30,473 nucleotides of DNA from a virus: the IMG/VR virus record IMGVR_UViG_3300030060_006061, positions 44,171 through 74,643 of that record. The stretch is one strand, 5' to 3'. The notes under the pieces were generated by a model, which saw only the letters and a list, made by a program, of their open reading frames with translations, was not told the origin of the DNA and ran no database searches. This document shows, piece after piece, positions 8,095 to 30,473 of the stretch. Each line of letters begins with the position of its first letter. Position 1 is the stretch's first letter. A program made the position numbers and the translations under genes.

Positions 8095-9462
8095 ATGGCA
8101 ACCTTTCGCGTTGGTGTAGGATCTTTTAACATACAAGATGGAGCTGTCGGTTTTGGTACTGATATAGATGGTCTTGGAAATTTAAGAGTTAAAGGTGTAA
8201 CAAAAACAACGGGTTCGATAGTATCTGGTGCATCAACACTCACCAGATATTCTGGTTTTGCTGCGGATAATATTAATCAACTTGAAAATATTACACTTAC
8301 ATCAGAAGTTGGGACGATTGGAGATATTGTAGTTGGTGTTGGCACATCAGTCATTATATCAAGTGCATCAACAGTCACAGTTGGAACAGTTGAAAGTGTG
8401 AGTATCGGAACTCATTTCTCTCCTCCAACAGGTGGTATTGAAGAAAGGGGAGATAATTTTATTGAGGGTATGATGAGATTCAACACGGATCTCAATACGA
8501 TGGAGTTCTATAATGGCGATGAGTGGAGACAATTCACTTATCTTGCAGATATTCAAAATAGCCCGGGAAGTCGTGGTCGCGGTTTATTTGGTGGTGGACA
8601 ACCAGGCCCAAGTAGAAAAAAAATAGACTCAGTAGAAATAATGAGTCAAGGTAATGGAGTTGATTTTGGTGATCTTATTGCGGGTCACTCAAATAAAGGT
8701 GCTTACTCTAGTAATATAAGGGGTATATTTATTGGTGGAGCAACTACTGATAATATGGATTACGTAACCATCGCATCACGAGGAGATGGAATTGATTTTG
8801 GAAATTTAACATTAGCAAGAGGATATTCACCCGGCACTTCATCCTCAACAAGAGGTTTATGTCTTGGTGGATGGGCAGGATCAAACCCACCATCAAATAT
8901 AATTGATTATGTGGAGATAGTAACTCTTGGAGACGCACTTGATTTCGGTGATTTATTTACTGGAAGATATTCTCATAGTTGTTTCTCCTCTCCAACTCGT
9001 GCTTTTGCTTACACTGGATCTAATAATAACAATGGAACCATTGAAGGATCTATTGAAATGGTGACAATAGCAGCAAAGGGTAATGGAACAGATTTTGGTG
9101 AACCTGTCATAGCAAGTAACTATCATCAAAACGGATGTTCATCCTCTATTAGAGGTCTCTTGGCAGGTGGTGCAAATCCAGCATATACCACTAGCATACA
9201 ATCTATTACAATGGCATCATCAGGTTCTGCGGAGATTGGTGGTGATTTAACAGTAAGAAGACAGAGGCCTGGTGCATCATCAACTGAAACTCGAGCTATA
9301 TTTTATGGTGGAAGATCAGATGGAGGTGCAACACTTAGCACTATTGATTTTGTTTCAATAGCGTCATTAGGTAATGCACAAGATTTTGGCGATATAAATG
9401 ATAAAGATAATTACACTAAAGCTGGTTTATCAGATTCCCACGGTGGATTAGGAGGTTACTGA
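8095..9462 (+). CDS. Stem plus six-repeat propeller protein 1
   Basis: 455 residues; AGGTGA at 8083-8088 is the ribosome site. Residues 1-~105 are a fibre-like stem (GFGTDIDGLGNLRVKG, then LTRYSGF and a series of Thr/Ser/Val strands). Residues ~107-150 are the SPPTGG....MMRFNTDLNTMEFYNGDEW module shared with most paralogues here. From residue ~160 there are six ~48-residue repeats of the form RGlFgGG-loop-IDyVtIas-GNgvDFGdL-loop-SSsT. Repeat 5 is degenerate (SAEIGGDL replaces the NAxDFGDL core). The chain closes with LSDSHGGLGGY. Its closest relatives in the window are the next two genes. The repeat is kelch-like in pattern but lacks kelch hallmarks, so a beta-propeller fold is inference. First gene of the propeller series. 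Confidence 0.78.
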   Translation: MATFRVGVGSFNIQDGAVGFGTDIDGLGNLRVKGVTKTTGSIVSGASTLTRYSGFAADNINQLENITLTSEVGTIGDIVVGVGTSVIISSASTVTVGTVESVSIGTHFSPPTGGIEERGDNFIEGMMRFNTDLNTMEFYNGDEWRQFTYLADIQNSPGSRGRGLFGGGQPGPSRKKIDSVEIMSQGNGVDFGDLIAGHSNKGAYSSNIRGIFIGGATTDNMDYVTIASRGDGIDFGNLTLARGYSPGTSSSTRGLCLGGWAGSNPPSNIIDYVEIVTLGDALDFGDLFTGRYSHSCFSSPTRAFAYTGSNNNNGTIEGSIEMVTIAAKGNGTDFGEPVIASNYHQNGCSSSIRGLLAGGANPAYTTSIQSITMASSGSAEIGGDLTVRRQRPGASSTETRAIFYGGRSDGGATLSTIDFVSIASLGNAQDFGDINDKDNYTKAGLSDSHGGLGGY

Positions 9463-10832
9463 TGGCTGAAATACGTTTTAATTACGGCGATAAATTTACA
9501 CAAACATCAGATTCAAACACTGGTATTGGATCAACAAATCCTGCTGCAAAATTAGACATAGCAGGTGGAACAAGTGCAGGAAGTCTCCGAGTCTCAGGTA
9601 TTGCAACTCTTTCTTCATATCAGGGATTTGTAAATACTAAATTATCAACAACAGAGAATTTAATTGTTGAAGCAGGTCAAAGTGGATCTGTTTCTGGAGA
9701 GGTCGTTGTCAGCACAGGACAAACAATATCAGTATCAACAGGTGCGACCACAGGACAAGGTGGGATTCAGAGTCTGAAGGTAAGTCAAACATTCATGCCA
9801 CCTGTTGGAGGAACTGCTGATCGACCAACTGATGTCAAACCCGGAATGGTTTACTATAATAAAGACTTCAAGACAATTGAGTTCTGGGATGGTAATTTCT
9901 GGAAGCAGGTAGATAATACAATAAGATCTAGTCGTGCTGTATTTACAGGTGGTGCTTATTCTTCTTATGGGGATTTTATTGATTTTGTAAATATTTCAAC
10001 TCTTGGAAATGCACAAGAATTTGGAAGAACTATTACTTCTGCTAGATTTTTTGCTGCATGCTCCTCTGGAACTCGTGGTGTTTATGCTGTTGGATATAAA
10101 TCTCCGGGAGCTAGTGCAAATGAAATTGAATATATTACAATTGCCTCAGAGGGAAACGCGATTGATTTTGGTGATAGCACTGTATCAGGGTATGCTCAAT
10201 CATCTTTAAGTAGTTCAACTCGTGGTATTTGGGGAGGAAGACAAAGCCCCTCTGGATATTCAAATGTAATTGATTATGTAGAAATAGCAAGTATTGGTAA
10301 TGCGGTTGATTTTGGTGATACAACCACACCATTGGATGGTGCTGCTGGAGTTGCATCACCGACTAGAGGAGTCATATGTGGTGGAAGAAATCCAGATTCT
10401 GGATCAACTGGTGTAAGTAATAATCAATTTATCACGATAGCATCCAAAGGTAATGCAAATGATGATGGTGATTTAACTCACAGAAGAAAAGATCTAGGTG
10501 GATTGTCAAACTCCACGAGAGGAATTCTTAGTGGTGGTAGAGATGGTTCTGCTGGAATACAGTTTTCTGATATCGACTTCATTACAATTGCGTCTTTAGG
10601 AAATGCACAAGATTTTGGTAATCTTACTTTTTCCGGTGCATATCTAGCATCAGCATCAAATCAAATTCGTGGTGTTACAGCTGGTGGAAACAGTGCGCCA
10701 AATTATTGGAATATAATTAATTTTGTAACAATTGCAACTACAGGAAACGCACAAGATTTTGGCGATTTAACTGTTGGAAGATACGCACTTGGTGCTTTAT
10801 CAGATTCCCATGGCGGACTAGGAGGTTTCTAA
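9462..10832 (+). CDS. Stem plus six-repeat propeller protein 2
   Basis: 456 residues; TGATG overlap with the previous gene, whose last codons supply GGAGGT (9451-9456). The N-terminal stem has the fibre signature GIGSTNPAAKLDIAGG, then LSSYQGF and strands SGEVVVSTGQTISVSTGA, followed by the FMPPVGGTADRP....MVYYNKDFKTIEFWDGNFW module at ~120-150, where the usual RFNTD has drifted to YYNKD. Six repeats run from Arg158 to the end (first RAVFTGGAYSSYG, last RGVTAGGNSAPNYW). Repeat 4 carries NANDDGDL instead of DFGDL. It ends LSDSHGGLGGF. The stem is colinear with those of the genes on either side, so these three form one subfamily. Confidence 0.78.
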   Translation: MAEIRFNYGDKFTQTSDSNTGIGSTNPAAKLDIAGGTSAGSLRVSGIATLSSYQGFVNTKLSTTENLIVEAGQSGSVSGEVVVSTGQTISVSTGATTGQGGIQSLKVSQTFMPPVGGTADRPTDVKPGMVYYNKDFKTIEFWDGNFWKQVDNTIRSSRAVFTGGAYSSYGDFIDFVNISTLGNAQEFGRTITSARFFAACSSGTRGVYAVGYKSPGASANEIEYITIASEGNAIDFGDSTVSGYAQSSLSSSTRGIWGGRQSPSGYSNVIDYVEIASIGNAVDFGDTTTPLDGAAGVASPTRGVICGGRNPDSGSTGVSNNQFITIASKGNANDDGDLTHRRKDLGGLSNSTRGILSGGRDGSAGIQFSDIDFITIASLGNAQDFGNLTFSGAYLASASNQIRGVTAGGNSAPNYWNIINFVTIATTGNAQDFGDLTVGRYALGALSDSHGGLGGF

Positions 10833-10833
10833 G

Positions 10834-12249
10834 ATGGCAACAATACGTAGAGCTGGTTTTGGCACTGTATTTGAACTCGAAAACGATGTTGTCGGGATCG
10901 GAACTGATAATCCAACTCATAAGTTACAAGCACTCGGTAATATTCGATCAGAGGCAGCAACTGATATTGGTATCTCTTCTCTTACAACTTATCAAGGATT
11001 TACAGATAAGGAAGCAAGATTTACAACTGGACAGATTGATAATCAATCACAGTCAGGATCAACATCAGGTGAGATTGTAATTGATGGTGATGTCACAGTT
11101 TCATCTGCAACGACATTCACAAGTGGCCCACAGAATCTAACAGTCACTGATACATTTACTCTTCCATCAGGAGACACTAATAGTCGTGCATTGAAACCAA
11201 CTGCAGGAAGTTTGAGATTCAATCAAGATTTTGCAACACTTGAATTTTACACAGGTAATAACTGGGCAACGGTAAATACATTTACTGAAATGCAAAACAG
11301 CCCCGGAAATCGTGGTCGTGGTATAACTGCTGGATCATATCCCGGTGAAGTAGAACATATCGAATTTATAAACATTGCAACAAAGGGAAATTCACTTGAT
11401 TTTGGTGAAATGACAGAGCATCAAGGATTAATGGATGCAGCATCATCATCAACAAGAATGGTTATTTCGGGAGGATATAATTCTGGATTTGGAGGTGGTG
11501 CAGTTACGGATATACAGTATGTTACAATGGCATCGGAAGGAAATACAATAGATTTTGGTGATCAGACTCAAGTAACCTATGGAACGGGAGCGAGTTCAAG
11601 TTCAACTCGTGCTTTGATTATGGGTGGAAATAGAACTCCTGATGTTTCGCCATTTGATGATGGAAATGATGGTAACAATACGATTTGCACCATCGAAATG
11701 GCAACGATAGGAAATGCAATTGATTTTGGTGATTTAAGTGCACGAAGAGCATATCCAAGTGCTTGTGGAGATCCTGTTCGTATGGTATTATTTGGTGGAT
11801 ATAGTAATGATGTTGGATCACCTCTTGGTTTGAGGAGTTCAGATACTGTAATCTATGCTTCTCATGGAAATGGGGTTGATTTTGGTGAGGCATCACATGG
11901 TGGATCTAATAAAGCAGGATCAAACTCGACAAGAGGTATTTGGGCTGGAACAAGTGGGGGAAGTAATACTTATACTAACATCATATATACAGTTTCTATT
12001 CAAACTTTAGGTAATTCAACTGATTTTGGTGATAGAACTTATGGTTATGTTGGTTCTGCTATGTCATCACAAACTCGCATGGTGATGTCTGGTGGAAAAA
12101 ATGCTGCATCCCCATATGCAACAACTAATATAATGGATTTTATTGAGATTGCATCATCTGGAAATGCACAAGATTTTGGCGATATTGGTTTTGATCAAGC
12201 TGATGCTGCTGGAACATCAGACTCTCACGGTGGACTAGGAGGTTTCTAA
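10834..12249 (+). CDS. Stem plus six-repeat propeller protein 3
   Basis: 471 residues, one base after the previous stop, with GGAGGT at 10821-10826. The stem shows VGIGTDNPTHKLQALGNI, a motif common in fibres and endosialidase-type tail proteins, then LTTYQGF, SGEIVIDGDVTVSSA and FTLPSGDTNSR....SLRFNQDFATLEFYTGNNW. Six repeats follow from ~Arg162 (RGITAGSYPGEVEHIEF first; RMVMSGGKNAASPY last). Repeat 3 has a long Asp/Asn-rich loop (PFDDGNDGNNTI), the sort of insertion that could tune a binding face. It ends TSDSHGGLGGF. Function beyond a likely virion fibre or adhesin cannot be read from the sequence. Confidence 0.78.
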   Translation: MATIRRAGFGTVFELENDVVGIGTDNPTHKLQALGNIRSEAATDIGISSLTTYQGFTDKEARFTTGQIDNQSQSGSTSGEIVIDGDVTVSSATTFTSGPQNLTVTDTFTLPSGDTNSRALKPTAGSLRFNQDFATLEFYTGNNWATVNTFTEMQNSPGNRGRGITAGSYPGEVEHIEFINIATKGNSLDFGEMTEHQGLMDAASSSTRMVISGGYNSGFGGGAVTDIQYVTMASEGNTIDFGDQTQVTYGTGASSSSTRALIMGGNRTPDVSPFDDGNDGNNTICTIEMATIGNAIDFGDLSARRAYPSACGDPVRMVLFGGYSNDVGSPLGLRSSDTVIYASHGNGVDFGEASHGGSNKAGSNSTRGIWAGTSGGSNTYTNIIYTVSIQTLGNSTDFGDRTYGYVGSAMSSQTRMVMSGGKNAASPYATTNIMDFIEIASSGNAQDFGDIGFDQADAAGTSDSHGGLGGF

Positions 12250-12250
12250 C

Positions 12251-13942
12251 ATGGCAAATTTAAGAACGAACAATTTATCAGGAGAGCAAGGACAGAATGC
12301 CTATCGTGGGTCTGTTTTTTTCAATGACGATGGTGGTGGAAATGGGAGTGATAGTCTCACGGTTCCAGCTGGGTCAGATTTTGCATATGGCACGGGTGAT
12401 TTTACATTTGAAGCGTATGTATGGATATCGAGATATAGTGGTGGCACGAGGCTTATTTTTTCACAGACTGTAAGCGGAACTAATTATATTCTTTTTGGTG
12501 TCACCTCATCTGGTCAGGTGACAACGATTCTTGGACATTCAAACCAAGTTACGTCAACAGAGACTATCGCTGAAAATTCTTGGAATCATGTCGCAGTTAG
12601 CAGAGCATCAGGCACTGTGAAGGTATTTGTTAATGGTGATGCATCTTCTGGATCATCGATCACCACAGATTTAAATGATACAACAAGAATTCCAACAATC
12701 GGAAAATATACACACTCAACTCAACTTCAATGGAAGGGATACATTTCAAATTTCAGAATAACAAAAGGAGAGGCACTTTATACAGTAAGTTTCATTCCAC
12801 CAACAACTGAACTGACAGCAGATGCAAATACAGTTTTATTATGTTGTCAAAATTCTGATGATGTAACACAAGAGGCAACAGGAAAAACAATCACTGCAAG
12901 CGGAAATCTTGCAACTGTAGGTTACAATAAAACACAACCAAAAGTTATTCCACCATACGGAGTGGATGCAGGAAACGCATTCGGAGGGCCAATCCAACAA
13001 AACACTCAAGGATATATGTATTTCCAATCAGGAAGAACAGAGGAAAGAGGTGGAACTCGTGCTTTAATGATTGGAGGTTTCTCACCGGGTGGTTCTGATA
13101 CCATTAATTTTGTAAATGTTGCGACGGAGGGGACAGCTTTAGATTTTGGAAATTTGAGTAGAGCTGCTGGTTACTGTGGTGCAATGGGAGGTCGCACTAG
13201 AGGTGTCATACCTCTTCAATATCAAATGACTCCCTCTGAAGCCACAACCAATATTATTGAATTTTTAACAATTTTAACTGAGGGGAATACACAAGATTTT
13301 GGTGATATGGCAACTAGCACTTATGGTAGAGCATCCGCATCTAATGATGTTAGAGGAATCATATCAGGAGGAGAAGCAACGGAAGATGCCATGGAATTTA
13401 TTACATTAGCATCACTAGGAAATGGTAGCAGTTTTGGTGATTTAACTCAGGGAAGAAGAGAGCCTCAATCAACTGCTGATCCAACTCGCATGGTAACTGC
13501 TGGTGGTTATGCATCTCCTAGCACCGGCACTAGGTATAATATTATTGATTTTGTGACCATTGCGACAACTGGAAATGCACAAGATTTTGGTGACTTGACA
13601 GTAACACGTTGGAAACCCGCTGCTTGTGCTGATGCCACAAGGGGTGTATTTGCAGGTGGAGGTACACCATCTAATTTAAATGTAATTGATTTTATTACAA
13701 TTCAATCAACAGGAGATGCAACTGATTTTGGTGATTTGGTATTAACCAGTAGTCGTGGATCTGCAGGATCTGATTCTATAAGGGGTGTTATTTTCACTGG
13801 TTTTTCAGATACTGGATCACATACTGCCAACATTGATAGCATAATTATTCAAACCACGGGAAGTGCAAAAAGATTTGGTGAGACGACAACAGATACTCAT
13901 AGTACAGGTGGACTATCAAATGGTCATGGTGGTCTTTCATAA
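12251..13942 (+). CDS. LamG-like lectin domain plus six-repeat propeller protein 1
   Basis: 563 residues; ribosome site GGAGGT at 12238-12243. Residues ~15-205 form a LamG/concanavalin A-like domain: GSVFFNDDG, DFAYGTGDFTFEAYVWI, then NSWNHVAVSRASGTVKVFVNG (the typical W-x-H-V-A-x-x-R strand pair), WKGYISNFRITKGEALYT and VLLCCQNSDDV. Such domains bind glycans or proteins. After a short link (QGYMYFQSGRTEERG) six repeats start at Arg270. Repeat 2 is atypical (RGVIPLQYQMTPSEATTN replaces the GG turn). The C-terminus is LSNGHGGLS. Unlike the three genes before it, it lacks the RFNTD module, which instead opens the next gene. The terminal glycine codons are GGTGGT, not a ribosome site, and a late promoter box overlaps the stop. 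Confidence 0.78.
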   Translation: MANLRTNNLSGEQGQNAYRGSVFFNDDGGGNGSDSLTVPAGSDFAYGTGDFTFEAYVWISRYSGGTRLIFSQTVSGTNYILFGVTSSGQVTTILGHSNQVTSTETIAENSWNHVAVSRASGTVKVFVNGDASSGSSITTDLNDTTRIPTIGKYTHSTQLQWKGYISNFRITKGEALYTVSFIPPTTELTADANTVLLCCQNSDDVTQEATGKTITASGNLATVGYNKTQPKVIPPYGVDAGNAFGGPIQQNTQGYMYFQSGRTEERGGTRALMIGGFSPGGSDTINFVNVATEGTALDFGNLSRAAGYCGAMGGRTRGVIPLQYQMTPSEATTNIIEFLTILTEGNTQDFGDMATSTYGRASASNDVRGIISGGEATEDAMEFITLASLGNGSSFGDLTQGRREPQSTADPTRMVTAGGYASPSTGTRYNIIDFVTIATTGNAQDFGDLTVTRWKPAACADATRGVFAGGGTPSNLNVIDFITIQSTGDATDFGDLVLTSSRGSAGSDSIRGVIFTGFSDTGSHTANIDSIIIQTTGSAKRFGETTTDTHSTGGLSNGHGGLS

Positions 13943-13945
13943 ATA
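13938..13945 (+). promoter_or_regulatory. Late promoter box CATAAATA
   Basis: CATAAATA overlaps the TAA of the LamG-propeller gene, 20 bases before the ATG at 13965, which has its own AGGA ribosome site at 13951-13954. It fits the NATAAATA form reported for T4-like cyanophage late promoters. The same arrangement recurs after the second LamG gene. Confidence 0.55.
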
Positions 13946-13964
13946 TGAATAGGATAGTAGAACC

Positions 13965-14990
13965 ATGAGTTTTTCACCAAAAACTGTACCACTAGGAGCG
14001 ATAAGATTCAACTCTGACTCACAGAAGTTAGAGTATTGGAATGGTAATATTTGGATGCAAATTCATACTTTCTCTCCAAATCTTGATGGTGGTACTAGAG
14101 GTATTTTTACTGGTATGGGTGCGATACCTAATATGAGCCCATATGGAATTCAATTTATAACAATTCCAACTCAAGGAAATGCAACAGATTTTGGTGATAT
14201 GGTTGATGCGAGATCAAACGTAGGGTCTTTTGCATCAAATGTTCGTGGAGTGTTTGGTGGTGGTTACAGCCCCACTCCAGATAATGATATTGATTTTGTT
14301 ACCATACCATCAACAGGAAATGCAGTGGATTTTGGTGATATGAATTACAATGCATTTGATACGGTTGGAGCATCAAATCAAACTCGTGGGTTATTTTTAG
14401 GAGGATCACCAAATAGTAGTGAGAATGGTGGTGTTAATAGTGTAGATTATGTAACAATTACGACAACAGGAAATGCAAAAGATTTTGGAGATTTATTTTT
14501 AAAATGTATGACTGCGGGAGCTGGTGCAAATCCAGTAAGGGCAGTGGTTGCGAATGGAAAAGATGGCCCAGCACATTCAAATGTTATTTTTAGAGTTAAC
14601 ATAGCAACACTAGGTAATTCATCAGACTTTGGGGATCAGTCTACAAGCAGACAAACCATGGGTGCATGTTCAAATTCGGTTAGAATGGTATTTGGGGGTG
14701 GAGGCACTCCTACAAAAATATCTAGTATTGAAACTCTTTTGTTAGCGACTGAGGGTAACTCAGTATTATTTGGCGATCTTGGGGCTGCTAAATCTAGTCT
14801 TGGTGCTTGTTGTGATGCGACTCGTGCTGTATTTGGTGCTGGTATATTCCACCCTGAAACTCATACAAATAATTTGGAATATATTAACATCGCCACTGGT
14901 GGTGATACAGTTGATTTTGGTGATTTATTGGATAATAGTAAAACATCAGGTGGCACTGGATTCTCAAATGGTCACGGAGGTCTCGGATAA
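13965..14990 (+). CDS. Short RFNTD-type six-repeat propeller protein 1
   Basis: 341 residues. The N-terminus is only ~44 residues: MSFSPKTVPLGAIRFNSDSQ followed by KLEYWNGNIW, a module seen in many phage fibre proteins between stem and head. Six repeats run from Arg45 (RGIFTGMGAIPNMSPYG) to the end, GFSNGHGGLG. Repeat 3 has an Asn-rich loop (GGSPNSSENGGVNS) and repeat 4 reads RAVVANGKDGPAHS. It follows the LamG gene across a promoter gap, and its final glycine codons (GGAGGT, 14976-14981) act as ribosome site for the next gene, whose ATG overlaps its stop. It may be the partner subunit of the preceding LamG protein, since that protein lacks this module; this is inference. Confidence 0.76.
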   Translation: MSFSPKTVPLGAIRFNSDSQKLEYWNGNIWMQIHTFSPNLDGGTRGIFTGMGAIPNMSPYGIQFITIPTQGNATDFGDMVDARSNVGSFASNVRGVFGGGYSPTPDNDIDFVTIPSTGNAVDFGDMNYNAFDTVGASNQTRGLFLGGSPNSSENGGVNSVDYVTITTTGNAKDFGDLFLKCMTAGAGANPVRAVVANGKDGPAHSNVIFRVNIATLGNSSDFGDQSTSRQTMGACSNSVRMVFGGGGTPTKISSIETLLLATEGNSVLFGDLGAAKSSLGACCDATRAVFGAGIFHPETHTNNLEYINIATGGDTVDFGDLLDNSKTSGGTGFSNGHGGLG

Positions 14991-16723
14991 TGGGAATATT
15001 AAGAACTGATCGAGTATCTGGTTTAGGTGGTGCAAATGCCATCAAGGGATCTGTATTTTTTGGTAATTGTCTGAGTGCCGGAAGTGTCCTTGGATTTAAT
15101 TATTTAAGAACTGAGAGTAGTGATAATTTTACATTCGGCACAGGAGACATAACGATTGAGGGTTGGTTTTTCTTCCCAAGATTATCAAGTAGCACTGGTT
15201 ATCAAACTTTAGTTGGTGATACAATATACTCCAACACTGGTGGATTTACTTTTTATGTTCAGAACGGACAACTTAATTTTTGGAAAGGCACTAACGCAAG
15301 TAGTGTTGTTTCTGGTGGAACAATTGTGCAAAATGAGTGGACTCATCTTGCTTATACAAGAGAAAGTGGATCTAATAAAATTTTTGTTAATGGATCTTTA
15401 GTTGGAACAGCGAGTGATTCGACAGATTATACAGATACTACACTAACAATTGGAACTAACAAAGTAACCCAACAATCAGGCACTGATGCTGGTCTATATT
15501 CTTTTTCCGGATTTGCTTCTAATTTGAGGATTTTAAAAGGAAGAGCACTATACACCGCAGCATTTACCCCACCGGTTGGAGAACTTCAAGTTATTGATAA
15601 TACAGTTTTATTATGTTGTCAATCACCCGGAAATGTTTTACAAGAAGCCACTGGTGTTGTCTTAACCGCACCAAGGATTAACAATAGTGCTGGAGTTCAA
15701 GCATCACACTTCACACCAAACTCACCCGTTGGTTTCTCTACAACCACTGATGTTGGAACACAGTTTGGAACAACCTTTAATGGTGTGACAACCTTTGACT
15801 CACAAGCATATATGGTTCCACCCGGTGGAAATACAAGAGAAAGAAACCGAGGTCGTGGTGTTCTTAGTGGTGGAAGAAGTAACCATGCCATGCAATTCAT
15901 TAACATTCAATCTCAAGGAAATTCACAAATTTTTGGTGACAGCGTAACTGACGATGGAATAGAGGGATTTGCAGTTGGATCTTCAACAAGAGGTTTGTTT
16001 TCGGGTGGTTATCCTAGCGTAGGAAATGTAATTGAATTCATAACCTTTGCAACTACATCGAATGGTACAGATTTTGGTGACATGACCACAGGTAGAAGAA
16101 GTGGTGCGGGAGCAGGAAATGAAACAAGAGGTTTATTTGCTGGAGGATTAAATTCAAGTGGTACCTCATTAAATACCATAGAATTTTCGACCATCGCAAC
16201 ATTAGGAAATTCAACTGATTTTGGTGATATGACACAGGCGAGAGATCAACTTGCCGGAGTTTCAGATACAACAAGAGCTGTTTTTGCTGGTGGAGTTGAA
16301 CAAGGTGGTAGTCAACATAATATTATGGACTTCGTTACAATCGCAACAACAGGAAACGCACAAGATTTTGGTGATATGACCGGAGTAAACACTGGTAGTG
16401 CCGGATCATCAGATTCAACAAGGGGTGTAATAACGGTTGGATATACAGCCCCGAATATGCTTGACCGAATTGATTTTATAACAATACAGTCAGCAGGTAA
16501 TGCAACTGATTTTGGTGATTTAACATTGGCAAGATATTTAAGTGCAAGTATGTCAAATTCAATCCGTGCAGTTATTGCTGGAGGTGGATCACCCTCTTCT
16601 CAAAATACAATTGATTTTGTGACGATAAAAACAACAGGAAATGCAAATGATTTTGGTGATCTTATCGGAGGTGCTAATTTTGTTGTTGTTGGAACATCAG
16701 ACAGTCATGGTGGTCTTTCATAA
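14990..16723 (+). CDS. LamG-like lectin domain plus six-repeat propeller protein 2
   Basis: 577 residues; TAATG overlap with the gene before. The LamG-like domain (~15-210) is colinear with that of 12251-13942: GSVFFGNC, NFTFGTGDITIEGWFFF, NEWTHLAYTRESGSNKIFVNG, FSGFASNLRILKGRALYT and VLLCCQSPGNVLQEATG. A linker GVTTFDSQAYMVPPGGNTRE leads to six repeats from ~Arg289 (RGVLSGGRSNHAMQF). Repeat 1 has QIFGD instead of DFGD. It ends TSDSHGGLS with GGTGGT codons, then a late promoter box. The two LamG proteins clearly differ in loops around the conserved strands, so they may bind different ligands. Confidence 0.78.
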   Translation: MGILRTDRVSGLGGANAIKGSVFFGNCLSAGSVLGFNYLRTESSDNFTFGTGDITIEGWFFFPRLSSSTGYQTLVGDTIYSNTGGFTFYVQNGQLNFWKGTNASSVVSGGTIVQNEWTHLAYTRESGSNKIFVNGSLVGTASDSTDYTDTTLTIGTNKVTQQSGTDAGLYSFSGFASNLRILKGRALYTAAFTPPVGELQVIDNTVLLCCQSPGNVLQEATGVVLTAPRINNSAGVQASHFTPNSPVGFSTTTDVGTQFGTTFNGVTTFDSQAYMVPPGGNTRERNRGRGVLSGGRSNHAMQFINIQSQGNSQIFGDSVTDDGIEGFAVGSSTRGLFSGGYPSVGNVIEFITFATTSNGTDFGDMTTGRRSGAGAGNETRGLFAGGLNSSGTSLNTIEFSTIATLGNSTDFGDMTQARDQLAGVSDTTRAVFAGGVEQGGSQHNIMDFVTIATTGNAQDFGDMTGVNTGSAGSSDSTRGVITVGYTAPNMLDRIDFITIQSAGNATDFGDLTLARYLSASMSNSIRAVIAGGGSPSSQNTIDFVTIKTTGNANDFGDLIGGANFVVVGTSDSHGGLS

Positions 16724-20786: not shown

Positions 20787-20788
20787 TT

Positions 20789-21511: not shown

Positions 21512-21516
21512 CGAAA

Positions 21517-22323: not shown

Positions 22324-22329
22324 TAATAT

Positions 22330-23124
22330 ATGAAATTTTATTTTGATTGTGGACTCCCTCGTTCGGGATCCACTCTTTTGACTGCGATATTAAATCAAAA
22401 CCCTAATATTCATGCTGGAACATTATCTCCAGTGATGGAATTAATGTATTATACGAATGAGATACTACATAGGGAACAAGCACAGGCATTTCCAAAACCA
22501 AAAGTATTTCAAGAGATAGTAACAAATAATATTATTAATTATTATTCTGATGTAAAAAATGAAGTGGTTGTTGATAAGTGCAGAGCATGGCCTGCACACA
22601 TAGATTTGTTAAAAAGATATGTGACTAATAATCCAAAATTGATATGCACAGTGCGTCATCCATTAGACATACTTGCATCCTTTATTACTTTATTTCATAA
22701 AGACGGAACACCTAACTTTATTGATAGAGCAATGACAGAGAGGAAAATACCAATCACAGATGATAATCGTTGTCATTATATGATGAATCCGGGTGGTATT
22801 GTGTGGGAATCAATGAACGCACTCGCAACAGCATTTAGACAGAAACAGCAACATCACATACACCTTATACAATATGATGATCTTGTATCTAATCCATCAC
22901 AAGAGATTGCAAAACTACATGGATTTTTAGAGTTAGATCCGTATGTTTACAATTTTGATAATATTGTAGCTAAAGATAGAGAGAAAGATACTGAGGTATA
23001 TGGATTACCAACGATGCATGAAATAAGAAAGAAAGTTAATAAAATATCTAAACCATATCAAGAAGTGTTGAGTGTTGATGTGATAAATAAATATATTAAC
23101 TATGATTTTTGGAATCAGCAATAG
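22330..23124 (+). CDS. PAPS-dependent sulfotransferase-like protein
   Basis: 264 residues, close to the usual size of single-domain sulfotransferases. The 5'-phosphosulfate loop is GLPRSGSTLLTAILNQNP (Pro10-Arg-Ser-Gly-Ser-Thr15), immediately after the first strand. The 3'-phosphate site is TVRHPLDILASF (Arg109 ... Ser117). Further support comes from VVVDKCRAWPAHIDLLKRYV between them and from IQYDDLVSNPSQEIAKLHGF downstream, a standard helix in this fold. Such enzymes move sulfate from PAPS to sugars, lipids or tyrosine. The acceptor here is unknown; nearby candidates are the Thr/Ser-rich protein, glycans made by the upstream transferase, or host surface sugars. The stop TAG touches the ATG of the next propeller gene. 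Confidence 0.83.
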   Translation: MKFYFDCGLPRSGSTLLTAILNQNPNIHAGTLSPVMELMYYTNEILHREQAQAFPKPKVFQEIVTNNIINYYSDVKNEVVVDKCRAWPAHIDLLKRYVTNNPKLICTVRHPLDILASFITLFHKDGTPNFIDRAMTERKIPITDDNRCHYMMNPGGIVWESMNALATAFRQKQQHHIHLIQYDDLVSNPSQEIAKLHGFLELDPYVYNFDNIVAKDREKDTEVYGLPTMHEIRKKVNKISKPYQEVLSVDVINKYINYDFWNQQ

Positions 23125-24273
23125 ATGTCAGAAGTTAGGGTCAACAATTTATCAAACGAGAATAATACAGGTGGCCCTACTATATCAGGTATCACAACAT
23201 ATTCTGGCAGTCATTTCTTTGTGCCACCACAGGGAGATACTGCGAGTAGACCATCTGGTTGCAAGCCAGGATCATTAAGATTTAACACAGATAATGCAAA
23301 GTTAGAATATTTTAGAGGAGATACGATTGGTTGGACAGAAATAGAGGCAAGTAATGAAGAGTTAGGACAAGATCAGCATACCGTTACAGGACAAACTGGA
23401 ATGGCGATTAGGGGATTATACGCTGGAGGTGGAACCCCAACTCGTGTTGATACGATTGATTACATAATTCTATCAACACCCGGTAATGCAATCGATTTTG
23501 GTAATTTACCAGACACAAACTCAAACACACTCGGCACGGTTTCATCAAGATCAAGGGCATTATTTGGTGGTGGATATCCATATACAAATAGAATTGGTTT
23601 TGTTGTTTTTGCAACTCAGGGAAATACCACTGATTTTGGAAATCTTTCACAGTCAAGAAGTAATTTAAATGGTCTTGGTGATGGTATTCGTGGAGTTTTT
23701 GTTGGAGGATACACTGGGTCAAATCAAACCACAATGGATTATGTTACTGTCGCACAAACAGGAGATGCTGTTGACTTTGGAGATCTTTCAGGAGTAACAA
23801 ACTCTGGATTAATTGCTAATTCATCAACTCGTGGTTTGATAGGTGGTATCAGTAATGGAGCTAATACAATTGATTTTATTACAATTAGAACAACAGGAAA
23901 TGCAACAGACTTTGGTGATATGACAGTTGGAAGATCTGGAGGGGCGGTCGGGCCATTTTGTAATGCAACGAGAGGGATATTTGCTGCTGGATACTCTGGT
24001 GGTGATCTTAATGTTCTTGATTTTGTTACAATGGCAACCAAAGGAAATGCATTAGACTTTGGTGATTTGATACAAGCTGTATCTCAATCGGGTGCTGTAT
24101 CATCACCAACTCGTGGAATGCTTATGGGCGGTATTGGTGGATCTCCGAGAGTAGCATTAAATACTATTCAAGAAACACAATTAGCATCAGCAGGAAACGC
24201 ACAAGATTTTGGAGACATCTCACAGTCCAGAAACGGTGGTGGTGGTATATCTAATGGTCACGGAGGTTTATAA
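23125..24273 (+). CDS. Fused SGxxGP + RFNTD six-repeat propeller protein 1
   Basis: 382 residues. The N-terminal ~95 residues contain both short modules in series: MSEVRVNNLSNENNTGGPTI and SGITTYSGSHFFVPPQGDTA, then PGSLRFNTDNAKLEYFRGDT and IGW. A linker (NEELGQDQHTVTGQTGMAI) leads to six repeats from Arg96. Repeat 2 reads IGFVVFATQGNTTDFGNL, and repeat 4 has a Gly-rich loop VGRSGGAVGPF. It ends ISNGHGGL. The first gene of the second propeller block has no obvious ribosome site, unlike its paralogues, and directly abuts the sulfotransferase stop. Its end supplies GGAGGT (24262-24267) for the next gene. Confidence 0.77.
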   Translation: MSEVRVNNLSNENNTGGPTISGITTYSGSHFFVPPQGDTASRPSGCKPGSLRFNTDNAKLEYFRGDTIGWTEIEASNEELGQDQHTVTGQTGMAIRGLYAGGGTPTRVDTIDYIILSTPGNAIDFGNLPDTNSNTLGTVSSRSRALFGGGYPYTNRIGFVVFATQGNTTDFGNLSQSRSNLNGLGDGIRGVFVGGYTGSNQTTMDYVTVAQTGDAVDFGDLSGVTNSGLIANSSTRGLIGGISNGANTIDFITIRTTGNATDFGDMTVGRSGGAVGPFCNATRGIFAAGYSGGDLNVLDFVTMATKGNALDFGDLIQAVSQSGAVSSPTRGMLMGGIGGSPRVALNTIQETQLASAGNAQDFGDISQSRNGGGGISNGHGGL

Positions 24274-25457
24274 TGTCTGAAATCAATTCTTCTAATTTTA
24301 AAAAGGAACATGGTGATCTTGCACCGGATCTTGTTGGTGTTACAGAACTTACATCACCTTATTTCTTTGTGCCACCATCAGGAACAACAGGAGAGAGACC
24401 AGATGATTGTGAGCCCGGCACAATGAGATTTAATACTGATGTTGGAAGTCTTGAGATATTTCGTGGTAAGACAATTGGATGGGAACAGATACAAAGAAGA
24501 GAAAGTCAATATCTAGGAGGAGGAACAGGATCGAATACTGGAACTGGAACTCGTGTTTTACAAGCAGGAGGTAATTCACCGTCATTAAATAATAATGTCA
24601 TACAATTTGTTACTATCTCAACATTTGGAAATGCTCAAGATTTTGGTGACTTAAGTTACAATGGTGGAAACAGTAGAGGATCAGCATCATCAAACACTCG
24701 TGCTCTATTTGCTAATGATTCTCACTATAACACTATAGTTTTTTGTACCTTTGCATCTCTAGGAAACTCAACAAATTTCGGTGACACAACTTATACAGGA
24801 AGATATAAATGCGGATTATCCAACCAAATTCGTGGAATATTTGCTGGTGGAAATACCACACCAAGTTCACCTGCATCTAGTATTAATACAATAGATTCTG
24901 TCACGATTCCACAAACGGGAAATGCAGTAGATTTTGGTAATTTATCTGTAGCTCGTGCATATATAGCCACTTGTTCATCATCAACTCGTGGTGTGTTCGC
25001 TGCTGGTTATAGGTCATCACCAGTTAGTTCTGGTTCTAGCACCGTAGACTTTATCACAATCACATCAACAGGAAATGCAACAGACTTTGGTGATACTATT
25101 GGTACTCAATATGGTTGTGCTGGAGCATCAAACGCTACAAGAGGTATTATATCTGGTGGACACCTTGCCCCTTCAGGTAACACTAATACAATGCAATTCA
25201 TAACTATTGCGACAACAGGAAATAGTATAGATTTTGGTGATATGGTTCAAGCATATGCGGTTCGTGTTCATGGTGGTTCATCATCATCAACTCGTGCTCT
25301 TTTTATGGGTGGATACAGAACTTCTGGATCACCAAATGCAACAAATGAGATTAACTCGGTTGAAATCGCAACGACAGGAAATGCAACTGATTTCGGTGAT
25401 CTAACAAATGCACCAATGTATACAGCCGCAACATCTAATGGTCATGGAGGTTTATAA
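24273..25457 (+). CDS. Fused SGxxGP + RFNTD six-repeat propeller protein 2
   Basis: 394 residues; TAATG overlap. The N-terminus is MSEINSSNFKKEHGDLAPDL then TELTSPYFFVPPSGTTGERP, and the RFNTD part is PGTMRFNTDVGSLEIFRGKT. A linker GGGTGSNTGTGTR precedes the repeats, which begin at Arg94. Repeat 2 is short (RALFANDSHYNTIVF) and carries Cys; repeats 3 and 4 have long Ser/Pro loops (NTTPSSPASSINT, YRSSPVSSGSSTV). It ends ATSNGHGGL. Of the window it is most like the gene that follows, sharing the FRGKT..GW and GGGTGSNTG stretches, which points to recent duplication of the pair. Confidence 0.77.
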   Translation: MSEINSSNFKKEHGDLAPDLVGVTELTSPYFFVPPSGTTGERPDDCEPGTMRFNTDVGSLEIFRGKTIGWEQIQRRESQYLGGGTGSNTGTGTRVLQAGGNSPSLNNNVIQFVTISTFGNAQDFGDLSYNGGNSRGSASSNTRALFANDSHYNTIVFCTFASLGNSTNFGDTTYTGRYKCGLSNQIRGIFAGGNTTPSSPASSINTIDSVTIPQTGNAVDFGNLSVARAYIATCSSSTRGVFAAGYRSSPVSSGSSTVDFITITSTGNATDFGDTIGTQYGCAGASNATRGIISGGHLAPSGNTNTMQFITIATTGNSIDFGDMVQAYAVRVHGGSSSSTRALFMGGYRTSGSPNATNEINSVEIATTGNATDFGDLTNAPMYTAATSNGHGGL

Positions 25458-26614
25458 TGTCACAAATTAATATCAGAAACTTATCAAACGAAAATGATGA
25501 TGGATCACCAGAGATAGTTGGTGTATCTACATTTTCTGCAACATCATTCTTTGTGCCACCAAAAGGATCAACAGCAGACAGACCATCAGACTGTGAGCCC
25601 GGTTCAATCAGATTTAATACAGATACAGCAAACTTAGAATATTTTAGAGGAAAGACACTTGGTTGGAGTCAGTTTGAATTAGTCACTCCAAATCTTGGTG
25701 GAGGAACAGGATCAAACACTGGTCTTGGAACTCGTGCAGTCATATCTCCTGGCCAAAGATCACCTAGTGGTTACGTAACAGATATAGATTTCATGACCAT
25801 ATCCACTCTTGGAAATGCACAAGATTTTGGTAATGCTGGTCTAACAAGGGATAAATTAGGATCGGGAGGAGATAGAACTCGCGGTTTGTTTATAGGAGGA
25901 GAAGGAGCATCTGACCAAATTGAATTTATTACCTTCGCATCGACAGGAGATGCCACAGACTTTGGTAATATTGGTCATGGTTCTCAGATGAGATTTGTTG
26001 CTGGATGTTCTGATTCAACAAGAACAATTTTTGGTGGTGGATACAATGGGCCAGCATCATACAATACAATTGAATATGTCACAACTCAATCAACAGGAAA
26101 CGGTGTTGATTTTGGTGATCTTATTTCGACTGATAATAATGCAAAAGGTGCGTGTTCTTCATCAACAAGAGGAATATTTGCTGGTGGTGATGAGCATAAC
26201 TATAGTAATCGAACAGATCGAATTGAATTCGTTACAATTAGCACAACAGGAAACTCAACTGACTTTGGCAACTTAACGAGTTCACGAGCAATGATAGGTG
26301 GAGCTTCCAACTCAACAAGAGGATTATTTTTTGGAGGATTTACTCCAAGCGTTACAGATGTAATTGATTTTATCACTATTGCAACAACTGGAAATGCAAC
26401 TGATTTTGGTGATACGACAGTTGCAAGATCAAGAAATTTTGCTGCATCATCACCAACTCGTGCGATAAGTGGTGCTGGTTCCACTCCCAGTGGATCTATA
26501 AATACAGTTGATTTTGTTGAGATATTAACAACAGGAAATGCACTAGATTTTGGTGATTTAGTTGGAACTGGAACTGGTGCTGCGGCTTGTTCGAGTGGTC
26601 ATGGAGGACTCTAA
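25457..26614 (+). CDS. Fused SGxxGP + RFNTD six-repeat propeller protein 3
   Basis: 385 residues; TAATG overlap and GGAGGT at 25446-25451. The N-terminus is MSQINIRNLSNENDDGSPEI then FSATSFFVPPKGSTADRPSD and PGSIRFNTDTANLEYFRGKT. Six repeats run from Arg93; repeat 1 has PGQRSPSG in place of the usual GG turn, and repeat 6 reads RAISGAGSTPSGSIN. It ends CSSGHGGL, where the next-to-last Gly codons read GGAGGA. The stop TAA is embedded in CTCTAAATATT, a weak late-box resemblance. The next gene lacks the SGxxGP module. Confidence 0.77.
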   Translation: MSQINIRNLSNENDDGSPEIVGVSTFSATSFFVPPKGSTADRPSDCEPGSIRFNTDTANLEYFRGKTLGWSQFELVTPNLGGGTGSNTGLGTRAVISPGQRSPSGYVTDIDFMTISTLGNAQDFGNAGLTRDKLGSGGDRTRGLFIGGEGASDQIEFITFASTGDATDFGNIGHGSQMRFVAGCSDSTRTIFGGGYNGPASYNTIEYVTTQSTGNGVDFGDLISTDNNAKGACSSSTRGIFAGGDEHNYSNRTDRIEFVTISTTGNSTDFGNLTSSRAMIGGASNSTRGLFFGGFTPSVTDVIDFITIATTGNATDFGDTTVARSRNFAASSPTRAISGAGSTPSGSINTVDFVEILTTGNALDFGDLVGTGTGAAACSSGHGGL

Positions 26615-26617
26615 ATA
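26603..26617 (+). promoter_or_regulatory. GGAGG ribosome site and possible weak late box before 26623
   Basis: GGAGG at 26603-26607 comes from the upstream HGGL codons, but it lies 15 bases from the ATG at 26623, longer than at the other junctions. TCTAAATA (26610-26617) is one base from NATAAATA. An in-frame ATG at 26587 would sit inside the upstream gene without a ribosome site and outside the family pattern, so 26623 is preferred with moderate certainty. Confidence 0.4.
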
Positions 26618-26622
26618 TTAAT

Positions 26623-27615
26623 ATGGAAAAACCCTCACTCGATACGGCAAAAGCAGGTGCAATTCGTTTCAATACGGATAGTAGCCAATTGGAAATTTAT
26701 GATGGGAATCAGTGGACAGGAATATTAGCAACATCAGGGTCACAACAAACTGGTGGGGCTCGAGGAATTATTTTCACTGGATCTTCGGGATCAAATAGCA
26801 TTGATTTTATAACAATACCATCAACAGGTAACGCATTAGATTTTGGAAACCGCACTCAAAGTGTTGAACCAAGTCAAAATGCTTGTGCTTCTAGAACTCG
26901 TGCATTTTTTGGAGGAGGAGAGGGTAATACTGATAGAATAGAATTTGTAACCATAGCACAACTGGGAAATGGAACAGACTTTGGTAATTTAACGGTATCA
27001 AGAGGTGCAGGCCCAGCAGGTGCATCAAATCAAATTCGTGCCTTGTGGGCTGGAGGAAGAACACCTAGTAATCGAAACGAAATTGATTACATTACAATGT
27101 CTCATTCGGGAAATGCCATAGATTTTGGTGATTTAATAACTGCAAGACAATGGCCTGGTGCTTTTGAATCATCTGTTAAAGCTTTTGTATTTGGTGGTAA
27201 TTATCCGGGTATTAATAGTATTGAATATTTTACAATGGCACATAGTGGAAATGGTAAAGATTTTGGTGATATGACTCATGTTCGTCAGGTTGTAACGGGA
27301 ACATCAAGTAGCACGAGAGGGTTAATGGCAGGAGGGCAAACACCATCTGGTGACTCTCAGATTATCGATTTTGTTGAAATGTCTTCTATAGGAAATGCAG
27401 TTGAATTTGGTGATTTGACAGATTCAAGAAGAGCAGCAGGAGGGTGCAGTGATTGTATACGAAGTGTTGTAGTAGCGGGATACGGCCCAAATGAACGAAG
27501 CACCATGGATTATGTTCATTTTGCAACTAAGGGAAATGCTGTTGATTTTGGTGACAGTAATGACACTGGATTTTCTGCAGGAACATCTAATGCTCATGCA
27601 GGGTTAGGAGGTTAA
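26623..27615 (+). CDS. Short RFNTD-type six-repeat propeller protein 4
   Basis: 330 residues from the ATG at 26623, chosen because MEKPSLDTAKAGAIRFNTDS then QLEIYDGNQW matches the other short RFNTD-type paralogues. Six repeats run from Arg47. Repeat 1 has no Pro loop (RGIIFTGSSGSNSIDF), repeat 4 begins Lys-Ala-Phe instead of Arg-Gly, and repeats 3 and 4 share the variant strand TMSHSGNAIDFGD / TMAHSGNGKDFGD. The terminal motif is changed to HAGLGG, the only HGGL exception. The ribosome site GGAGGT (27607-27612) for the next gene is then supplied by the last two glycines instead. Confidence 0.74.
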   Translation: MEKPSLDTAKAGAIRFNTDSSQLEIYDGNQWTGILATSGSQQTGGARGIIFTGSSGSNSIDFITIPSTGNALDFGNRTQSVEPSQNACASRTRAFFGGGEGNTDRIEFVTIAQLGNGTDFGNLTVSRGAGPAGASNQIRALWAGGRTPSNRNEIDYITMSHSGNAIDFGDLITARQWPGAFESSVKAFVFGGNYPGINSIEYFTMAHSGNGKDFGDMTHVRQVVTGTSSSTRGLMAGGQTPSGDSQIIDFVEMSSIGNAVEFGDLTDSRRAAGGCSDCIRSVVVAGYGPNERSTMDYVHFATKGNAVDFGDSNDTGFSAGTSNAHAGLGG

Positions 27616-27616
27616 T

Positions 27617-28666
27617 ATGTCTGAATTTAGAGTCAACTCAATCACAAATCAAGACGGAAGTGCAGGGCCTCAAGTATGTGGTGTCTCAACATTTAGTGGT
27701 AAGTCTGGTGTTCAGATACCAAGTGGATCATCAGAGTTTCGTAGACAAGATGGTGGTGGAAGAGGAAGAGGAATTACAGGTGGTGGATTCGTACCTGCAT
27801 CTAGTCAAAATGTAATGGATTTAATTGAGATTGCAACTACAGGAAATGCAACTGATTTTGGTGATCTCACAGTAGTTTTAAGAAACATTGCAACATGTGC
27901 ATCATCAACTCGTGGAATTTTTGCGAGTGGTCAAACACCAAGTGTTAGTGATGTAATATGTTTTACGACTATATCATCATCTGGTGGTGCAAATGATTTT
28001 GGTAATTTAAGAGAAGCGATGACAAATAGTAATGATGGTGTTCTTTCTGATAATACTCGTGGCATTATATTATATGGAGGGCCCACATCATTACCCCAAC
28101 CTACTGTCCAAGGAACTTTAGATTTTATTACAATACCAACAACTGGTGACTCATCTAGATTTGGTGAATTAAGTGTGGCAAGAAGACATACTGCATCAAT
28201 GGCCTCACCAACAAGAGGTGTGTTTGCAACAGGAAAAAATGACTCTATTAGTACTTACCTTAAAGTAATAGATTTTGTAATAATTCAAACACAAGGAACT
28301 GCAGTAACTTTTGGGGAAATAATTACAAACGGTAGAGAACAGGCAGTTGGAGCAGGAAATAAAACAAGAGGTTTAATCGCTGGTGGTCTCAATCCGACTC
28401 CTTTTGATAGTATTGATTTTATTACACTCGCGACTACAGGAAATAGTCAGGATTTTGGTGATTTGTCTGGAAATCGATTTGGTATGTCAAGCATGAGTAG
28501 TTCAACTCGTGCTACTTTTGCTGGTGGTAGCGCACCGGGAAGTTCCGATATTATAGAATTTGTAACTATTGCAACCACAGGAAATGCAACAGACTTTGGT
28601 GATTTGACTGTTGCTCGAACAGTTCCACAAGGATTATCTGATGCTCATGGAGGATTAGCACAATGA
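27617..28666 (+). CDS. Short SGxxGP-type six-repeat propeller protein 2
   Basis: 349 residues; one base separates it from the previous stop. The N-terminal ~50 residues are MSEFRVNSITNQDGSAGPQV then STFSGKSGVQIPSGSSEFRR, going directly to GRGRGITGGG at ~Arg51 with no RFNTD module. Six repeats follow; repeat 2 carries SSGGANDFGNL, also seen in the 29694 gene, repeat 3 has a long Pro loop (YGGPTSLPQPTVQGT), and repeat 4 departs from the core (TAVTFGEI). It ends LSDAHGGLAQ, and its stop overlaps the next start as ATGA. Its partner module (RFNTD) opens the following gene. Confidence 0.77.
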   Translation: MSEFRVNSITNQDGSAGPQVCGVSTFSGKSGVQIPSGSSEFRRQDGGGRGRGITGGGFVPASSQNVMDLIEIATTGNATDFGDLTVVLRNIATCASSTRGIFASGQTPSVSDVICFTTISSSGGANDFGNLREAMTNSNDGVLSDNTRGIILYGGPTSLPQPTVQGTLDFITIPTTGDSSRFGELSVARRHTASMASPTRGVFATGKNDSISTYLKVIDFVIIQTQGTAVTFGEIITNGREQAVGAGNKTRGLIAGGLNPTPFDSIDFITLATTGNSQDFGDLSGNRFGMSSMSSSTRATFAGGSAPGSSDIIEFVTIATTGNATDFGDLTVARTVPQGLSDAHGGLAQ

Positions 28667-29694
28667 CGGAACAAAGACCAATACAACCAACTCCCGTAGG
28701 AGCATTAAGATTTAATACTGATAGCGCGAAGTTAGAATATTTTGATGGAAATCAATATGTAAACATCACAACTGATTCACCCGAACAAAATACTGGTGGA
28801 ACTCGTGGAGTAATGGCTGGTGGTGGATTCCCAAACACTGATGTAATTGATTTTGTAAACATAGATACAACTGGAAATGCAGTAGATTTTGGTGATCTAA
28901 CTCGTGGTCTTTACTTGGTGCAAGCAGTTGCATCAAGAACAAGGGGATTATTTCATGGTTCTCATCAATCACCCGATCCAACTAGAAATAATCAAATAGA
29001 ATTTGTAACCATAGCATCACAGGGAAATGCAGCAGATTTTGGTGATTTAACTGAGCAGGGTCATGGGTATAATTCGGGAAGTGGTAGTAGTACTAGAGGA
29101 ATATTTACTATACAAAATACATCTTCTAATACTGCTAATAATACAATAAATTATGTAACCATCGCACAAAATGGAAATGCAGTTGATTTTGGTGATCTTA
29201 CTTTTGCAAGATCTGCTGCGAAAGGCAATGTAAGTTCACCTGTTCGTTCATGTTGGGCTGGAGGTCAAAATCCCTCTATTTCATCTCCTAGTGCGACTGA
29301 TGTTATAGATTATATTATGATCGCAACAACTGGAAATGCAGCAGATTTTGGTGATTTAACACAAGCATCAAGAGAGGGAACAGGATGCTCGAATTGTATA
29401 AGGGGTTTTTACTTTTCTGGTTCGAGTGGAACTGATAATCAAATAGAATTTATAACCATTGCGACTCTAGGTAATGCCATTGATTTTGGAGACCTTTCTT
29501 ACAGTGCTGAAGCAGCAGGTGGTGGAGCATCACCAACTCGTGCAATATCTGCAGGAGGGACAGATAGTGGTGGTAAAGATACTATTGATTATTGGCAAAT
29601 AAGCACGTTAGGGAATGCAGTTGATTTTGGTGATCGCACCGTATCGAAATATGGTTGTGGTGTTGCTTCAAATGGACATGGAGGTTTAGGATAA
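28663..29694 (+). CDS. Short RFNTD-type six-repeat propeller protein 5
   Basis: 343 residues; ATGA overlap and GGAGGA at 28649-28654. The N-terminus is MTEQRPIQPTPVGALRFNTD then SAKLEYFDGNQYV and SPEQNTGGTRG. Six repeats run from Arg48. Repeat 2 has a charged loop (HQSPDPTRNNQ), repeat 3 an Asn-rich one (QNTSSNTANNT), and repeat 4 reads RSCWAGGQNPSISS. The sequence ends VASNGHGGLG, with GGAGGT (29680-29685) serving the next gene. It completes the third clear pair of a module-poor gene followed by an RFNTD-opening gene in which the two reading frames overlap or abut. Confidence 0.77.
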   Translation: MTEQRPIQPTPVGALRFNTDSAKLEYFDGNQYVNITTDSPEQNTGGTRGVMAGGGFPNTDVIDFVNIDTTGNAVDFGDLTRGLYLVQAVASRTRGLFHGSHQSPDPTRNNQIEFVTIASQGNAADFGDLTEQGHGYNSGSGSSTRGIFTIQNTSSNTANNTINYVTIAQNGNAVDFGDLTFARSAAKGNVSSPVRSCWAGGQNPSISSPSATDVIDYIMIATTGNAADFGDLTQASREGTGCSNCIRGFYFSGSSGTDNQIEFITIATLGNAIDFGDLSYSAEAAGGGASPTRAISAGGTDSGGKDTIDYWQISTLGNAVDFGDRTVSKYGCGVASNGHGGLG

Positions 29695-30473
29695 TGTCAG
29701 AACTCAGAATTAACAACATCACAGACACTGCAGGGTCAAGTGGGCCAATTATTGCTGGTGTATCAACAGTCACATCAACATCACACATGGTCATGCCAAG
29801 TGGCTCAACAGAAATGCGTGGTGGAAGAGGAAGAGGAGTTACAGGTGGTGGATATCCCTCTTATAGAAATTTTATGAATAAAATTGAAATAGCAACCACA
29901 GGAGATGCAATTGATTTTGGTGATATTACTAAAGAACTTAGAGGGCCATCGGATGGAGTATCCTCATCAACAAGAGGTCTTTTTGGGGGTGGTTTAGTAG
30001 CACCTAATAATGCCAGTCAAACTGTGATTTCATATGTCGTAATCTCCTCTGAAGGTGGTGCAAATGATTTTGGTGATTTGTCAAGAGACAGATTTATGAT
30101 AAAAGGTCATTCAAATAATACTCGTGGAATATTTACTGGTGGATACGCAGTATCTCCATCTGTTCATGTTAATAATATAGATTTTGTAAATATCGCATCA
30201 ACAGGAGATGCAAATGATTTTGGTGATATATCTGCTACACCCCCAAGAAGCACGTTTGGTTCGGGATCATCACCAACGAGAGGAGTATTTGGTGGAGGAT
30301 ATTATGGTGCACCGGGCACAGATGTAGCTGACATTGAGTTCATTACTTTTGCAACAAAAGGTAATTCTGAAACTTTTGGTAATTTGAGTGCTGCGAGAAG
30401 AAATCTTGGGGGTGTCTCATCATCAACAAGAGCACTATTTGCTGGTGGTAATAATGGGTCTGGAACAAGTAAT
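29694..30473 (+). CDS. Short SGxxGP-type propeller protein 3, 3' end cut by window
   Basis: The ATG at 29694 overlaps the previous TAA, and the frame stays open for 260 codons to the last base, so the gene is incomplete at its 3' end. The N-terminus, MSELRINNITDTAGSSGPII then STVTSTSHMVMPSGSTEMRG, matches the 27617 gene and likewise passes directly to GRGRGVTGGG (~Arg47) without an RFNTD module. Four complete repeats and the start of a fifth (RALFAGGNNGSGTSN) are present. The repeat-2 core SSEGGANDFGDL closely follows the repeat-2 core of the 27617 gene, which supports duplication of the whole unit. By the pattern of the window, the next gene outside should open with an RFNTD module. Confidence 0.75.
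   Translation, partial: MSELRINNITDTAGSSGPIIAGVSTVTSTSHMVMPSGSTEMRGGRGRGVTGGGYPSYRNFMNKIEIATTGDAIDFGDITKELRGPSDGVSSSTRGLFGGGLVAPNNASQTVISYVVISSEGGANDFGDLSRDRFMIKGHSNNTRGIFTGGYAVSPSVHVNNIDFVNIASTGDANDFGDISATPPRSTFGSGSSPTRGVFGGGYYGAPGTDVADIEFITFATKGNSETFGNLSAARRNLGGVSSSTRALFAGGNNGSGTSN

Follow-up and report, generated by a model that had tools for sequence, protein, structure and literature searches.

Descriptions of most phages list a single receptor-binding protein or a few of them; the largest set that we met in a literature search numbers 11 (phage PhiK64-1). What, then, does a virus do with at least 16 paralogous genes of one architecture in a single locus? The window analysed here (30,473 nucleotides) comprises bases 44171-74643, the final 30 kb of the 74.6-kb IMG/VR virus record IMGVR_UViG_3300030060_006061. 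The likely answer is that the locus encodes a multi-slot adhesion apparatus of a T4-like cyanophage, with kelch heads exchanged by recombination. Head exchange on anchors that stay in order appears to be how these viruses renew their hold on hosts.

On the record, genes for photosystem II D1, a T4-type single-strand binding protein, a baseplate tail tube cap, a hub/lysozyme and a large tail fibre lie 5' of the array. The psbA gene shares 88% identity with its homologue in Prochlorococcus phage P-HM2, and gp32 shares 76-79% with its counterparts in S-SM2 and single-cell marine viruses. By its gene content (psbA, gp32, gp5), the contig is therefore a T4-like cyanophage, uncultured and oceanic; we infer the host genus, probably Prochlorococcus or Synechococcus. 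The tail fibre gene (4800..8084, + strand; phrog_30742 tail fiber, 1e-48) adjoins the array on its 5' side and, in contrast to the heads described below, is mostly alignable to a related contig (G007). A T4-type late motif, TATAAATA, stands at 4758 just 5' of this gene, with an overall frequency no higher than chance, and scans for promoters and terminators gave nothing clearly above shuffled sequence. Farther upstream, two neighbouring glycine-rich genes (1557-3470 and 3470-4762) cover consecutive stretches of phrog_24848 (3-399 and 389-786). The former ends with ~220 additional residues resembling an intein/Hint-type domain (CFSADTRVLM...TTNHPLF), a likeness unconfirmed by Pfam and PDB sequence searches.

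Gene content of the array and predicted fold of its heads

Sixteen plus-strand ORFs between 8095 and 30473 carry the repeat domain and span about 19.1 kb, with four genes at 19875-23124 as the sole interruption. The sequence-only reading, which had proposed a run of at least 16 six-repeat paralogues over about 19 kb broken by one four-gene cassette, thus holds. Its "at least" is also correct, since the window is the last 30 kb of the record and the sixteenth gene is cut; the true number is probably higher. Each of the 15 complete genes has six C-terminal repeats of ~48 residues (consensus RGVFGGG-(loop)-IDYVTI-ASTGNAT-DFGD-(loop)) and closes with S-x-x-HGGL or a near variant (D-HGGL in g09, HAGL in g13). 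With g07 as query, the other 15 genes were matched at E = 1e-43 to 8e-78, and a repeat profile found 0 matches below 1e-3 among 2,274 reversed ORFs; similarity of the 16 genes is far above chance, and their homology is unquestionable. Heads within the window are ~41% identical among themselves, about as alike as heads from different phages, and blades are ~40% identical whatever their position. A single recent gene duplication was dropped as an explanation on account of this low identity.

N-terminal to the heads lie anchors of several types. Long anchors open the array in g01 (8095..9462; 161 aa, with an RFNTD module), g02 (9462..10832; 157 aa) and g03 (10834..12249; 161 aa). Anchors designated A-type and B-type then alternate in parts of the array. 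A-type anchors belong to g04 (12251..13942), g06 (14990..16723), g08 (17755..18792), g14 (27617..28666) and g16 (29694..30473, cut by the contig end after about four blades). B-type anchors belong to g05 (13965..14990; short, GAIRFNSDSQKLEYWNG..W), g07 (16745..17755), g09 (18789..19820), g13 (26623..27615) and g15 (28663..29694). Both modules are combined in g10 (23125..24273; 95 aa), g11 (24273..25457; 93 aa) and g12 (25457..26614; 92 aa). The starts of g08 and g16 were corrected to 17755 and 29694, where each overlaps the preceding stop as TAATG. Two A-type genes also hold a LamG domain (PF13385) before the head, g04 (7.6e-19, followed by a linker) and g06 (2.5e-16).

The interrupting cassette, likewise on the plus strand, occupies the same array position in related contigs. 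Its first gene (19875..20786, 303 aa) matches phrog_1409 weakly; related arrays have it at the corresponding position. The second (20789..21511) is glycosyltransferase-like (phrog_1574; one relative is annotated as a putative glycosyltransferase), the third (21517..22323) is Thr/Ser-rich and belongs to no known family, and the fourth (22330..23124) encodes a sulfotransferase (PF13469, 1.9e-17). Across related contigs, the product of the Thr/Ser-rich gene (21517-22323) varies in length from ~189 to 276 aa with a similar N-terminus.

The proposal that the repeats close into a propeller is supported by structure prediction of two paralogues, g12 and g04. An AlphaFold2 model of g12 built on a 79-sequence alignment (mean pLDDT 88, most of the head >90) forms a closed ring of six four-stranded blades, and the model of the LamG-bearing g04 has the same head, with lower confidence elsewhere. 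Kelch domains fill the top Foldseek matches of g12 in the PDB (best KLHL12 kelch, E 5.8e-20), and the TM-score (target) for predicted heads reaches 0.90 among the top matches. These models support reading the heads as closed six-bladed kelch-type beta-propellers. For the window genes scanned, Pfam gave no match to a kelch family, and no convincing relative emerged when the PDB was searched by sequence with a profile; the GG after strand b is present in the blades.

The same earlier description, of constant strands and variable loops, also fits the 686 blades that were parsed: length hardly varies in the c strand, CD turn and d strand, whereas 662 of the BC loops and 671 of the DA segments are distinct. 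BC loops range from 3 to 26 residues and DA segments from 13 to 21. In Keap1-type kelch domains the ligand face is made up of the BC and DA loops; protein binding and enzymatic activity are also known for kelch domains. Head variability is concentrated in what would be that face.

Divergence of anchors and heads across related arrays

A scan of viral contigs returned 78 loci, most with one to three such genes and one group with long arrays. Both array ends are visible in two contigs, G003 and G004, with 14 kelch genes each, and G001 holds at least 18 in 28.4 kb. Anchors are assignable to slots whose order is co-linear over at least nine contigs. The comparison of the locus that the sequence-only reading had advised gave co-linear arrays, from 14 genes where both ends are visible up to at least 18. 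A second, more divergent array in G008 (L065:1-16391) comprises at least 11 kelch genes; its anchors are of another kind (LTVDDSGGKF...), and SGNAS-type tails take the place of HGGL at the C-termini. On the minus strand 3' of another array (L026:16385-18581), two 2OG-Fe(II) oxygenase genes and a radical SAM/SPASM gene might modify fibre proteins.

Anchors and heads in the same slot have different histories. Between g01-g03 and L038, anchors are 86-89% identical (87% at the amino acid level for g01), and heads only ~40%, the level of unrelated heads. Among 211 genes compared between contigs, anchors 60-98% identical go with head medians of 47-52%, and anchors below 60% with 42-47%; heads are alike throughout only where anchors are ≥98% identical, that is, in the same virus. 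For same-slot pairs (n = 118, which share contigs and are not independent), median dS was 0.47 for anchors and 1.10 for heads. Head dS exceeded anchor dS in 107 of these 118 non-independent pairs, and in 103 of the 105 with anchor dS <1. The change is localized: a three-segment fit (89 pairs, 54 contig pairs) placed the left border next to blade 1 (median -1 codon; within 10 codons in 67/89) and the right border shortly before the C-terminus (median -7 codons). DNA comparison with G007 gives the same picture, as blastn matches are long (72-82% identity) until position 8598 and consist only of short stripes beyond, falling mostly at anchors, gene ends and the linker after a LamG domain.

Heads also turn up on foreign anchors. 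The heads of L009:16326 (slot 9 of G001) and L029:10992 (slot 5 of G010) are 83% identical in amino acids on anchors from different slots, and like heads on different anchors recur in L026:13015/L014:3767 and L036:15151/L070:3353. Same-slot heads are sometimes common to two contigs (L030:5687 and L014:2733, 92%), which indicates that exchange is frequent but not total. The dS jump, the breakpoints at the junctions and the like heads on different anchors show that the recombination of heads, raised within one option of the first description, is real and strong. These sequence comparisons show anchors inherited vertically as fixed co-linear slots, and heads replaced as cassettes by recombination. 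With dN/dS of 0.11-0.32 against L038, the anchors of g01-g03 are under purifying selection; recently shared heads have 0.23-0.54, also <1.

Gene number may change as well. In gene 7 of G003/G004, which has one anchor, the A half matches g08 best and the B half g09 best, so that g08 and g09 together correspond to its fused A+B anchor; insertion of a head into a single anchor, or its loss from one, would leave this pattern. The sequences are suggestive of changes in gene number through such events at A+B anchors. Gene 6 of the same contigs, in which the B module of g07 sits fused behind an A module, is a less clear case: only its B half is plain, and its A half is closer to g08 than to g06. Some slots hold a LamG head in the propeller's place (L026:11026-11949, L011:10543-11439). 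Within the window, the LamG stretches of g04 (12321-12825) and g06 (15061-15688) find no match in L038 between flanks that do match; they may be a second exchangeable cassette.

The conserved C-terminal tail appears to have a dual use. The HGG glycines are coded GGAGG in 72 of 76 genes with the next ATG within 10 nt, as against 23/80 other genes and 321/1114 internal GG pairs (Fisher p about 8e-19 and 7e-32). An example is the GGAGGT at 29680..29685 (+ strand), which codes for the two glycines of the g15 HGGL and ends 8 nt before the ATG of g16. Within the window, 12 of 16 genes have an AGGAG-type site (GGAGG or AGGAG) at most 10 nt from the start; g05, g07 and g10, without a tail-encoded site, start after short gaps or after the cassette. 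That the HGG tail encodes the next gene's Shine-Dalgarno sequence is thus shown statistically, and position and codon bias suggest a functional role. A head would then be exchangeable without disturbing the next anchor or its translation.

Proposed mechanism and rival explanations

We hypothesize that each product combines an N-terminal anchor with a C-terminal six-bladed kelch propeller, which would bind host surface structures, probably glycans, through its hypervariable BC and DA loops. Anchors would dock at distinct tail positions or on one another, and all heads would be displayed together. Swaps have their borders at the anchor-head junction and just before the conserved S-x-x-HGGL, and exchange between co-infecting phages could retune adsorption. 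We infer virion location, co-display and ligands from the position behind the tail fibre genes and by analogy with Ackermannviridae and PhiK64-1. For the fuller model the chances seem about even: here a virion shows ~14-18 or more different heads at once at fixed anchor addresses, a population-wide head pool is reassorted by recombination across slots and phages, a swap spares translation of the next slot, and gene number shifts through A+B anchors.

Three roles had been put forward from the sequence, namely a multi-part fibre with distinct heads, a virion decoration set and a store of alternative heads. The fibre fits best, as the slot-specific anchors of the genes are kept in a conserved order and good ribosome sites precede most genes. 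A decoration set, in which the products would coat the tail sheath or the capsid and serve chiefly for diffusion or for loose attachment to glycans without acting as a receptor fibre, is unlikely, even if many distinct heads with LamG alternatives would suit it and the adjoining sulfotransferase and glycosyltransferase-like genes suggest surface chemistry. The array stands directly behind tail fibre genes, the products have no recognisable capsid-binding domain, and anchors of the g10 type resemble small proteins encoded next to tail fibre genes in cultured cyanophages, e.g. Syn33. At the matching position in Prochlorococcus phage Syn33 (L094:13995-21440), behind the tail fibre gene, lie eight uncharacterised genes, the first 32% identical to the anchor of g10; these genes may represent the same slots fitted with other heads. 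A passive store, with one or a few heads expressed and the rest donors for recombination into an expression site, did not stand up and seems improbable. It would account for recombination between slots and for the similar likeness of heads within and between phages, but none of the complete genes in the window lacks a start or a slot-specific anchor of its own, and no start-less cassettes as in a shufflon were seen there. Anchor conservation and purifying selection, co-linearity between phages, intact starts and the ribosome sites of 12/16 genes all argue against a silent store.

We give very little credence to the idea that heads diverge in place, through accelerated mutation or positive selection and without exchange. 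The loops are extremely variable and dN/dS is higher in shared heads than in the g01-g03 anchors; head values nevertheless stay below 1, and closely similar heads are joined to different anchors. Inside one gene, synonymous divergence rises abruptly where anchor meets head, for which in-place mutation is no explanation. A diversity-generating retroelement was rejected on the result that none of 12 array contigs, which may be incomplete, has a reverse transcriptase (PF00078). Ordinary tandem duplication in one phage lineage with no special role is scarcely credible: the heads are all homologous and their blades interchangeable, but divergent contigs share arrays of 14-18 genes in which the anchors follow one order and are conserved, and the exchange of heads respects defined borders. 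The arrays offer a natural library in which a single scaffold bears loop variants by the hundred. With 14 to at least 18 exchangeable heads each, they would show how a group of ocean viruses tracks changes in host surfaces, and the anchor/head border and Shine-Dalgarno-encoding tail suggest simple rules for modular adhesin evolution.

Comparison with known systems

In predicted fold and blade topology the heads resemble the six-bladed kelch domains of KLHL12 and Keap1, with variable loops on the ligand face. They differ in being viral and array-encoded, with ~10-15% sequence identity and no Pfam kelch match in the genes scanned. Synechococcus phage S-SKS1 is the sole cultured phage found with related repeats, having several kelch genes beside a sulfotransferase and 2OG-Fe(II) oxygenases; unlike the array, its set is smaller, 27-30% identical and of a different repeat consensus. 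In tblastn against cultured phages, one window head gave no match, and another, like a relative's gene, gave only distant S-SKS1 matches. Searches with the g11 anchor alone in viral contigs and with g12 in cellular genomes returned none. A literature search, with most subscription journals outside its reach, found no description of a kelch array in cyanophages. Tetart and colleagues reportedly described in 1998 the T-even distal tail fibre locus with its adhesin gp38, said to be one adhesin per phage and of a different fold, whereas the array here has many slots.

By analogy, the array may work like the systems of Ackermannviridae and PhiK64-1. In Ackermannviridae, as many as four tailspikes, which carry gp10-like XD domains, join into a branched complex; their N-terminal assembly domains are conserved, their C-terminal receptor-binding domains vary, and exchange goes by homologous recombination at the conserved 5' end (PMC11414711). 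The array shares, at the level of genes, several receptor-binding-type genes with conserved N-terminal modules and exchanged variable C-terminal heads; it differs in its at least 14-18 genes, kelch heads, other anchors and a tail encoding the next Shine-Dalgarno. T4gp10-like/XD domains gave no Pfam match in the window proteins scanned, at sequence level only, and g01 has just weak phrog matches, to families of unknown function. Klebsiella phages PhiK64-1 and RaK2 build many receptor-binding proteins from reused anchor units (11 putative depolymerases in PhiK64-1), but with depolymerase heads, T4gp10-like domains and conserved peptides and no homogeneous kelch array (PMC6872550). In metaviromic islands at host-recognition genes of marine phages, tail fibre C-termini are far more variable than N-termini; the passages on them concern single genes and describe no multi-slot array, kelch fold or cassette borders (PMC3909814). 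New here are positional-orthologue anchors with non-orthologous heads, the occurrence of a head on different anchors, the Shine-Dalgarno-encoding tail and the BC/DA variability.
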